Shown here in pieces: positions 1,887 through 39,818 of a stretch of 64,000 nucleotides of DNA (the first letter of the stretch is position 1; every line of letters begins with the position of its first letter). Source of the DNA: Pseudomonadota bacterium. Lineage in GTDB: Bacteria > Desulfobacterota > SM23-61. The DNA lies in the NCBI GenBank assembly GCA_018819135.1, contig JAHJQK010000005.1:1-64000 (forward strand), written 5' to 3'. The position numbers and the translations under genes were made by a program. Under the pieces are notes generated by a model. It was not told the origin of the DNA, made no database searches, and saw only the letters and a list, made by a program, of their open reading frames with translations.

Positions 1887-2115
1887 CCACCGAGGACACC
1901 GAGATCACAGAGTTATAAAGAAATCCGCTTAATACCATCAACCAGTTTGCCTTGGCCGAAATTGATTAATAATGCCCGTTTGAGACCCGTACTCTTCAAA
2001 GCGCTTCTTCATAAATTGATTCCAGCAGGCCGGGGCCTAATATTCGATGTACTTCGATGGCTGAAGAAATTATTTTTTCAGTTAGAGAATCTGCCATTCT
2101 CTGTGCCCTCTGTAC
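1887..2115. repeat. Bracketed repeat unit carrying a deleted GxxExxY gene
   Basis: A left bracket at 1887-1912 and a decayed right bracket at about 2099-2115 flank the GxxExxY remnant 1913-2097 as directly as in the intact unit at 11938-12363. A further right-type bracket stands alone at 2231-2257, 7 bases after the pilD stop, and a partial GCAGAT-family repeat lies at 2160-2201. Nothing else is seen between 1824 and 2263. Confidence 0.8.
1913..2097 (-). pseudogene. GxxExxY protein remnant (internal deletion)
   Basis: Reading from the ATG at 2097 gives [18 protein letters not shown], continues to [10 protein letters not shown], then stops at TGA. One frame over, KSTGLKRALLINFGQ to DGIKRISL ends at TAA 1913-1915. 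Against the intact 121-residue copy at 11965-12330, about 60 codons containing the D and ExK nuclease residues are missing. The join (GCGCTTTG|AAGAGTACG) shares TTG with both expected parent sequences, so a microhomology deletion is likely. It is the same gene in the same position between brackets, so it marks a decayed second copy of the unit. Confidence 0.85.
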
Positions 2116-2263
2116 TACTAACGTTCAAATTCTGAAAATTTTGTTAAGATTTTTAAAAAAGATTTTTATCTGGATTTATTTGCGTTCATCCGTGTTCTAA
2201 GTTGTTTTTTGTTATAAATTTTTGTTATAGCTCTGTGATCTCTGTGCCCTCTGTGGCAAAAAA

Positions 2264-11937: not shown

Positions 11938-12363
11938 GCCACAGAGGGCACAGAGATCACAGAGTTATAATGAAATTCTTTTCACTCCATCAACGAGTCT
12001 TGCCTGGCCAAAATTAATTAAAAGCCCCCTCTTGATTCTGGTGCTTTTAAGATATGACAACAACTGCGCCGTGAAAATATCTTCCAATCTACGAACCGAC
12101 TTTATCTCGACAATAACCTCTCCCTGCACTATTAAGTCAAGCCTCTGCCCTTTGATAACTTTATCTTTATAGAATACTTCAACTTCTTTCTGCCGCTCGA
12201 AGGGAATCCCTCTGAGCAAAAGTTCATAACAAAGCGCCTCCTCATAGATAGATTCCAATAGACGCGGCCCTAAATGACGATGAACTTCTACGGCAGAAGA
12301 AATGATCTTTTCCGTTACACTATCTACCATATCTTTCTCTGTGATCTCTGTGCCCTCTGTGGC
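11938..12363. mobile_element. Bracketed unit with intact GxxExxY gene (putative mobile element)
   Basis: Left bracket 11938-11964 ends at the base before the TAA stop of the GxxExxY gene. Right bracket 12337-12363 begins 6 bases upstream of its ATG. The unit is therefore a single gene between inverted 9-bp-periodic repeats, 426 bp in all, inserted between pilR and pilS. No transposase and no clear target duplication are seen. Calling it mobile rests on the second, decayed copy at 1887-2115 and on the many related bracket pairs. Confidence 0.6.
11965..12330 (-). CDS. GxxExxY protein (PD-(D/E)XK nuclease-like)
   Basis: A 121-residue protein matching the GxxExxY family: the signature region [13 protein letters not shown] (G21, E26, Y29) follows an amphipathic helix. 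The core of a PD-(D/E)XK nuclease fold is visible: D65 in QRLDLIV, E75 and K77 in VEIKS, and Q89xxxY93. All would-be catalytic residues are present, so the protein could be an active nuclease. Its cellular role is not established. Its ends coincide almost exactly with repeat brackets, and a deleted paralogue sits in an equivalent unit at 1913-2097. Confidence 0.85.
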   Translation of the reverse strand: MVDSVTEKIISSAVEVHRHLGPRLLESIYEEALCYELLLRGIPFERQKEVEVFYKDKVIKGQRLDLIVQGEVIVEIKSVRRLEDIFTAQLLSYLKSTRIKRGLLINFGQARLVDGVKRISL

Positions 12364-14298: not shown

Positions 14299-14379
14299 CT
14301 TTCCCTCCCATTTTTTGGCAATATATCATCCGTCATCCGCACGCCTGCGTCCACAGTCAGCGGGCGATGAAATAAATTA

Positions 14380-14532
14380 GCCACAGAGAACACAGAGATC
14401 ACCGAGGTTTTAAAACTAAAAAGATATTGTGCAAAAACTAAGGCATGGGGAATCCTGCTTCGAATCTCGCTGGTTTTTAGGTTTTTCATTTTCAGCAGGT
14501 ATCTCTCTGTGTTCTCTGTGACCTCTGTGGCT
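14380..14532. repeat. Bracketed repeat unit A2 (153 bp, twin of 136-288)
   Basis: Left bracket 14380-14407, right bracket 14505-14532, same length and inner sequence as unit A1. The near identity of the non-coding core implies recent copying or a maintained function. It fills most of the greA to radical-SAM gap (14299-14583). Confidence 0.85.
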
Positions 14533-14583
14533 AAAAGGTTTCGAAATTCCTATGCAATAAATTTCTTTCGCCGACCGCCCGCG

Positions 14584-15504
14584 TTAATTTTTCTCCGGCT
14601 CCTGCATCCATCCTACCTGAAGCTGATAACGATCCAGAATTTTCAAAGCTTCTTTAAACTCCCGGGCATACAGCCGCCGCTTAAGCTCGGGGAAGTTTTT
14701 TGCCCGGTAAGCGGGGAAAAACTGGGTCATCAAACTGATAGAACACTGCCCAGAAAAGTTCTCAGCCAGAAAACGGGCTACCTTTTCCGTCCCGGCTAAT
14801 CCATTGGGCAGAAGAAGATGGCGAATGATCAAACCTCTTTTCATCATCCCTTTTTCATCATATATCGCCTTCCCAACCTGACGGTACATTTCGAGTACGG
14901 CGGCTTGGTTGACGGTTGGGTAGGCCGGGGCTTGAGAATATGTCCGGGCTGTTTTCTCGTCTGCGTATTTCATATCCGGCAGGTAGATGTCCACGACCCC
15001 ATTCAAAAGGGTCAACGTCTCCAAGTTATCATAGCCATTGGTGTTATAAACTAAGGGTAGCCGAAATCCTCTTGCTATTGCCCAGCAAAGCGCTTCCAGG
15101 ATCTGGGGAACAAAATGGGTAGGCGTTACCCAATTGATGTTGTGGCAACCCCGGTTTTGCAAGTCGAGCATCATTTTTCCCAAAAACTCCTCGCTTCTTT
15201 CCTGCCCAACGCCCATTTGGCTGATGGGGAAATTCTGGCAAAACACACAATGTAAATTGCAATGGGTCATGAAAATCGTTCCTGAACCTTGAGTTCCAGA
15301 AATGGGGGGTTCTTCTCCCTGGTGGACATTGTAGCTCGAGATCATGGGCCGTAAGCCGGCTTGGCAGAATCCCTTTTCGCCCTGGGTCCGGTCCACGCCG
15401 CACCCCCGAGGACAAAGCCGGCAAGATTTTAATATCTGTCCGGCCGCTTTGGTCCTCGATTGAAGTTCTCCCGAGGTCCATAGTTTAAGATAACTCGGGA
15501 ACAC
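14584..15504 (-). CDS. Radical SAM protein, PflX-like (COG1313)
   Basis: 306 residues. An N-terminal cysteine cluster ([12 protein letters not shown], then GFC) precedes the radical SAM motif CNLHCVFC, as in the uncharacterised PflX group related to pyruvate-formate-lyase activating enzymes. A glycyl-radical target is not encoded nearby. It overlaps the end of pyrC by 20 bases on the same strand, so co-transcription is likely. The biological substrate is unknown. Confidence 0.85.
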
Positions 15505-17814: not shown

Positions 17815-17876
17815 TTTTCTCCCCTTTTTTAAAAAAGACCAGAATGAACCGCAGAGACCGCAGAAAAATTAAATTA

Positions 17877-18108
17877 GCCACAGAGGGCACAGAGAACACA
17901 GAGATAAAATCAAAATCCAAATCCCGCCATGGCGGGACAAAATGCAAAACGACAAATCAAAATTTAAAATGAAAAGAAGTTTTTGATTTTGGATTATGGA
18001 TTGTAATTTTGATTTTTAATATTTGATTTTTGGATTTTATCTGTTCCACTGTGGTGAATCGCCTTTTTAGGTATATTTTTTCTCGGCGTTCTCTGCGCTC
18101 TCTGCGGT
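17877..18108. repeat. Bracketed repeat unit between pyrR and pyrB
   Basis: Left bracket 17877-17903 and right bracket 18082-18108 enclose an AT-rich palindromic cargo built of AAAATCCAAA/TTTGGATTTT-like segments plus CCCGCCATGGCGGG. A second partial left bracket is at 17846-17865. The right bracket starts within 10 bases of the pyrR stop. No promoter for pyrB stands out in the gap. Confidence 0.75.
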
Positions 18109-39642: not shown

Positions 39643-39818
39643 GCCACAGAGGCCACAGAGATCACAGAGTTGGAACCTATAGATTTAAGGACAAAACAGA
39701 CTATGCACGTTTATTCTCCCTTAAGCCATAATAATTACGCAACGAATTAAGAGAAAACAGAAGGAAAAAAGCATAAAAATTTTTTTTAAAACTCTGTGCT
39801 CTCTGGGTCCTCTGTGGT
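39643..39818. repeat. Bracketed repeat unit before the Nudix gene
   Basis: Left bracket 39643-39669 and right bracket 39792-39818 with an AT-rich cargo not seen elsewhere in the window. The right bracket ends 11 bases before the Nudix ATG. Confidence 0.8.

Follow-up and report, generated by a model that had tools for sequence, protein, structure and literature searches.

GxxExxY genes and their inverted heptamer arms: a probable minimal mobile element that reads its own ends

We argue that GxxExxY genes and the short inverted repeats that frame them belong together. Recognition of the repeat unit by the protein and movement of the gene plus its arms are both well supported by computation. The reading we favour, and hold to be probable, is a widespread minimal mobile element. 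The GxxExxY nuclease would recognise its own arms and spread by break-and-copy, with the gene-less arm pairs as non-autonomous copies; the cutting is the step we infer. A broader claim seems to us evenly poised. It is that these elements are a new phylum-spanning class of autonomous mobile element, in which a single RecB/Cas4-like nuclease of 120 aa would read three spaced 7-bp units on either side of its gene, with a Thr6-G5 code, dozens of unit specificities and large gene-less intergenic families.

The element lies in the window, by which we mean the whole stretch of 64,000 nucleotides that was analysed. By pattern match its left arm is at 11938-11964 on the forward strand and its right arm at 12337-12363 on the reverse strand. 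They are perfect inverted copies and read GC-CACAGAG-GG-CACAGAG-AT-CACAGAG. Between them, on the reverse strand at 11965-12330, is a GxxExxY gene of 121 aa. Only 6 bp separate its ATG at 12330 from the right arm, and the stop codon (11965-11967) adjoins the left arm. The original prediction had the gene exactly framed by inverted three-unit brackets, and this is confirmed, both contacts included. The whole element is about 430 bp, and the GxxExxY gene (PDDEXK_3) is its only ORF. The neighbours are two protein genes that look like those of a response regulator and a sensor kinase, and no CRISPR or recombination gene adjoins the GxxExxY gene within the window.

Profile search places the protein in TIGR04256 (GxxExxY) at 135 bits against a cut-off of 35, and it also matches PF13366 (PDDEXK_3) above the cut-off of 22. 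The first G of the motif is replaced by R23 (codon 23, 12262-12264) where the other 136 of 137 proteins have G; E26 and Y29 are kept. This replacement appears to affect the name-giving residue only, and the GxxExxY profile match is clear. D65, E75, K77 and Q89, the D-ExK-Q residues that had been predicted to be kept, are all present (as D65, E75-x-K77 and Q89-x-x-x-Y93). Across the 137 proteins D65 is conserved in 136, E75 in 135 and K77 in every one. The D-ExK-QxxxY pattern is typical of RecB-type nucleases. An AlphaFold model of the window protein has a pLDDT of 94. Its best structural match in Foldseek is Cas4 SSO0001 (4ic1, E 5.7e-4), followed by MGME1 and lambda exonuclease; similarity to I-Bth0305I is weak (E 0.52). 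A sequence search for solved-structure relatives returned none. The modelled protein has the PD-(D/E)XK fold and the D...ExK residues, and metal-dependent cleavage is predicted. GxxExxY proteins are under purifying selection (dN/dS 0.03-0.44).

Cas4 proper was considered and ruled out, because conserved cysteines are lacking. None is found among the conserved columns of the GxxExxY alignment, so the iron-sulphur cluster cysteines are missing, and the Cas4 profile matches the window protein at only E 0.003. Defence-system profiles gave no match beyond this weak one.

The association of gene and arms extends across the family. About 300 genomes of the phylum yielded the main sample, 137 full GxxExxY genes, and the array detector scored three-unit arrays in each flank while prescribing no unit sequence. 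The original prediction proposed asking whether brackets are commoner at GxxExxY genes than at other genes, and they are. An array was found in either flank of 79% and in both flanks of 49%, compared with 7% and 0% for UPF0102/YraN, a control of the same size that is likewise PD-(D/E)XK, and 14% and 0% for PIN/VapC. About a fifth of the GxxExxY loci have no array by these criteria, which we count against the mobile nuclease. An inverted-repeat score of at least 14 was reached by 61% of GxxExxY loci and by 3% when flanks were swapped. The result was repeated (71% against 6%) in 80 named loci from Nitrospirae, Planctomycetes, Bacteroidota, Chloroflexi, Spirochaetes, Proteobacteria, Cyanobacteria and one archaeon. 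Together with the copies that carry their arms, these surveys strongly support the earlier proposal that gene and ends are one unit. There was only one viral GxxExxY locus, and there were eight plasmid matches.

The arms follow a simple grammar. A typical arm has three 7-bp units spaced 8-10 bp apart (9-9, 8-9, 8-8 or 10-10); where the two spacings differ, the shorter one is almost always the outer. The unit varies by locus: CACAGAG, CGCAAAG, CACGAAG, CACCAAG, CGCAGAT, CACGGAT, CGCAGAC, ACAGGAT and others. It is nevertheless identical between both arms in 38 of 42 loci, compared with 6% expected. The consensus of 46 CACAGAG arms from the window's genome is TT[AT]GC-CACAGAG-GN-CACAGAG-AN-CACAGAG; the unit positions were used for selection and are conserved partly by construction, while the outer TT and GC were not so used.

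Does the protein read the repeat? On the tree of 137 proteins the unit type changes 27 times compared with 53-64 times when shuffled, and the arm spacing 25 times compared with 47-61. The eight closest relatives of the window protein (59-74% identity, several phyla) all have CACAGAG-type arms, one of them (L237) as CACGGAG-CACAGAG. Agreement between clade and unit is not by itself proof of recognition. The arms are linked to the gene, so this agreement could be co-inheritance, and a sharper test was therefore run on the covariation of residues and bases, which is the stronger evidence. Where unit base 5 is G, 64 of 80 loci have Thr6, at the start of helix 1; where it is A, 1 of 62 does. Put the other way, 64 of the 65 Thr6 loci have G there. 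In Pagel's test of correlated evolution residue 6 and base 5 gave an LRT of 59.7 (4 df), the top of 165 tests with a median of 6.1. The second-ranked residue, 101, gave 31.6. Nine loci with GGAT/GGAA-type units were excluded from the fit, and all nine have Thr6.

The link was replicated in 58 typed loci from newly searched genomes. All 25 Thr6 proteins went with G (Fisher 3e-9), though many proteins of this set are close to the first. The remaining loci had A in 24 cases and G in 9, of which 8 had Ser. Among the 13 replication proteins below 75% identity there were 7 of Thr with G, none of Thr with A, 1 of another residue with G and 5 of another residue with A. Base 4 has no notable covarying residue, and base 2 covaries moderately, at residue 121 only. 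In raw counts, taken without regard to the tree, residues 111-115 are strongly associated with base 7; we do not claim this link, as base 7 changes only 7 times on the tree. An independent-pairs test on residue 7 had too few pairs. From the residue 6-base 5 covariation, it is very probable that the protein recognises its own brackets. The original prediction had the nuclease possibly acting on the bracket repeats. The subfamily-specific units and the tree-aware covariation lend this support, but the homing or repair-templated copying proposed with it stays conditional, because no clean empty site was found.

The mobility of gene plus arms is well supported by the copies themselves. One genome (G155) has three copies about 97% identical within 3 kb, and their homology reaches about 14 bp beyond the first unit on one side and about 30 bp beyond the last unit on the other. 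Among gene pairs of at least 78% nucleotide identity, the sampled outer flanks, some of them short, show no similarity in 85 of 108. In several pairs homology begins at the arm, as in L310/L336 (two copies in one genome, 97%) and L383/L386; in other near-identical pairs it passes the arm by some bp or stops short. At L178 (G155:C3) two of the three near-identical elements adjoin C-terminal fragments of a VapC-like PIN gene. In seven loci (L012, L216, L378, L381, L382, L385 and L388) two GxxExxY clades share the outer ends AACTATTCAG...CTGAGTAGTT, with variants, beyond their arms. Going by these sequences, it is as if elements had inserted in a common outer hairpin.

Orthologous sites also hold different occupants. 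At the window locus, the GxxExxY gene of G003, a genome from the same genus, belongs to another clade and lies between CACAGAT arms, with the orientation unchanged; in G004 the CACAGAG arms enclose unrelated cargo. At 17864-18086 the window has a CACAGAG arm (17879-17903) with a degenerate partner, nested within an outer CGCAGAG hairpin. Here G004 has only a nearly loopless outer hairpin, G000 and G003 have nested CACAGAG brackets, and G001 has a CACAGAT bracket. The original prediction looked to sister strains for empty sites. No clean one was found in the sister genomes, but different occupants at orthologous sites were; at window positions 14305-14600 G004 lacks the bracket but has another repeat. 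No target-site duplication was found. For homing-type copying into an unoccupied cognate site, then, there are orthologous sites with different occupants and copies in unrelated DNA, with no clean empty site.

The element is one of many brackets. The two-unit bracket pattern has 27 matches in the window compared with 0.01 expected by chance, and 228 in the 4.4-Mb genome compared with none for the reversed control pattern. Two GxxExxY genes, one intact and the other a remnant, are present in the host genome, and each is bracketed. The remnant, on the reverse strand at 1996-2094, is the N-terminal 32 codons followed by a stop, and it retains the motif Gly that the intact copy has replaced. A deleted paralogue in brackets had been predicted at 1887-2115. 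The remnant is real and the element starts in a forward-strand arm at 1888-1912 (CACCGAG GA CACCGAG AT CACAGAG), but its right end lies elsewhere. The right arm (2099-2255, reverse strand) is apparently split: another repeat, with the ending GTAGTACAGAG, breaks into the stretch at 2099-2114, so the true right arm is probably at 2231-2255, where three units are intact. Within unit 2 of CACAGAG arms (window 2099-2230, L038, and G001:C312 near 380-500) there is a second repeat, which ends GAACGTTAGTAGTACAGAG and in places begins CACAG-C..GCAG..GCCGCAACC. Given this position, the CACAGAG arms themselves appear to be insertion targets.

About nine further bracket pairs with other cargo had been proposed in the window, which is too many. 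There are three further strict pairs, all gene-less: 138-285, a candidate non-autonomous copy; 14382-14529, where the sister genome G001 has about 118 extra bp in the left arm; and 39645-39816. The rest are degenerate or single arms, and the contents are short AT-rich DNA rather than genes.

The reading that we hold to be probable runs as follows. The protein would bind the arm units, most likely as DNA, and would cut at or between arms in its own element or in gene-less pairs. The break would be repaired by copying another element with matching arms, which would spread the gene and swap cargo between brackets. Gene-less pairs would remain as targets and non-autonomous derivatives. Arm cutting and repair copying are suggested by the fold, the exchange of cargo at orthologous sites and the gene-less pairs.

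Two further observations count against the mobile nuclease. There are only 2 GxxExxY genes for about 228 matches in the window's genome, a ratio that looked like chance in the single-genome view until other genomes were examined. The 99% complete genome G001, from the same genus, lacks a GxxExxY gene yet has 164 CACAGAG matches; the gene may have been lost or missed by the assembly, or the arms may be otherwise maintained. The original prediction had named brackets that are abundant without the gene and never polymorphic as evidence against itself. G001 has the abundance, but its brackets are polymorphic relative to the window's genome. Genomes with a gene of one unit type do have the matching arms. 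CACGAAG arms occur in 48 of 297 genomes including 6 of 6 carriers of a CACGAAG-type gene (Fisher 1.4e-5), and CGCAGAC arms in 19 of 297 including 7 of 7 carriers of a CGCAGAC-type gene (Fisher 1.3e-9). Both counts are inflated, because they include the arms that flank the carrier's gene itself. Judged by the listed places, further arms lie elsewhere in most carriers, though not in G135 (CGCAGAC).

Four-helix-bundle (S23-type) genes, which are not nucleases, are framed by inverted repeats likewise. A nuclease is therefore not needed for the layout, and it is mainly for this reason that rival explanations are kept. Another enzyme acting in trans, such as a Y1/HUH or DDE transposase or a reverse transcriptase, could move the element, with the role of GxxExxY limited to binding the arms, as an accessory factor or copy-number regulator. 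We think this unlikely but worth keeping in view. It would suit the shared layout and the abundance of gene-less arms in G001, and we know of no strand-transfer chemistry for the PD-(D/E)XK fold alone. However, GxxExxY is the sole gene in the unit, D-ExK-Q is intact in essentially all copies, and arm type tracks GxxExxY subfamily.

It is more doubtful still that the element works as RNA, with arms forming a stem excised by RNase III and a protein that recognises RNA repeats. There is a precedent in 23S rRNA. The Coxiella intervening sequence (IVS) of 428 nt has an S23p ORF preceded by tandem heptamers, is excised by RNase III and is thought to be selfish, according to the relevant part of PMC4990558. 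The S23-type genes found here also have inverted arms, mostly of 7-bp period. Against this, the spacer bases of 19 arm pairs from gene-less brackets match in 7 of 38 cases, compared with 7.8 expected. The spacers pair no better than chance, which argues against pairing as the sole constraint. By fold the protein is closest to DNA exonucleases and Cas4, and the elements lie between ordinary genes rather than in rRNA.

Autoregulation, in which the arms would serve as operators for the gene and for scattered targets, is improbable. One arm is directly upstream of the start codon as it would require, but arms come in inverted pairs, occur downstream of the gene and between tandem genes far away, and move together with the copies. 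Least credible is that ordinary intergenic repeats gathered small, functionally unlinked orphan ORFs, as the mere 2 brackets with a gene among the genome's many might suggest, since like-sized controls lack arms, repeat type follows protein, the residue-base link was replicated in new genomes and dN/dS is low.

If the break-and-copy nuclease is correct, a common protein family to which no role has been assigned would gain a function, and a large body of short inverted repeats in bacterial intergenic DNA would be accounted for. The family would also offer small nucleases with a wide range of natural specificities, whose code could be read from sequence alone. It also makes testable why S23-type genes and rRNA intervening sequences bear heptamer repeats.

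How does the element compare with known systems? A full-text search of open-licence papers found no description of the gene-arm association. We consider it new in kind because of this and because it falls outside Cas4, REPIN-RAYT and the rRNA intervening sequences. Cas4, lambda exonuclease and the RecB nucleases are the closest solved folds and share D-ExK-QxxxY, here in 121 aa. Free-standing homing endonuclease genes, including PD-(D/E)XK types (I-SspI and the EDxHD-type I-Bth0305I), are likewise small nuclease genes that could spread by cutting and repair copying. However, homing enzymes cut a site outside their element, whereas here the covarying repeats are the element's own ends.

In REPIN-RAYT systems short repeats in inverted orientation flank a gene, numerous inverted pairs of about 100 bp that lack the gene are scattered through intergenic DNA, and each type of repeat accompanies its own type of protein. 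The RAYT protein is a Y1/HUH transposase, and REPs are palindromes. The many genome-wide inverted pairs with a cognate protein are found here too, but the only ORF of the window unit is PDDEXK_3 with no Y1/HUH transposase, and the arm is three spaced 7-bp units. The Coxiella IVS is similar in size and also has a single small ORF adjoined by heptameric direct repeats; the part of PMC4990558 that describes it reports no correspondence of protein and repeat. The window element differs in lying outside rRNA and in having a nuclease-like protein instead of the S23p four-helix bundle. The TIGR02436 (S23-type) loci L052-L081 also lie outside rRNA, and their inverted arms have mostly a 7-bp period like the Coxiella S23p heptamers. 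REPIN-RAYT and the heptamer-bearing rRNA IVS are the closest architectural analogues, and the window element lacks one defining feature of each. If shared architecture is weighed above the enzyme, it could count as REPIN-RAYT-like or IVS-like.
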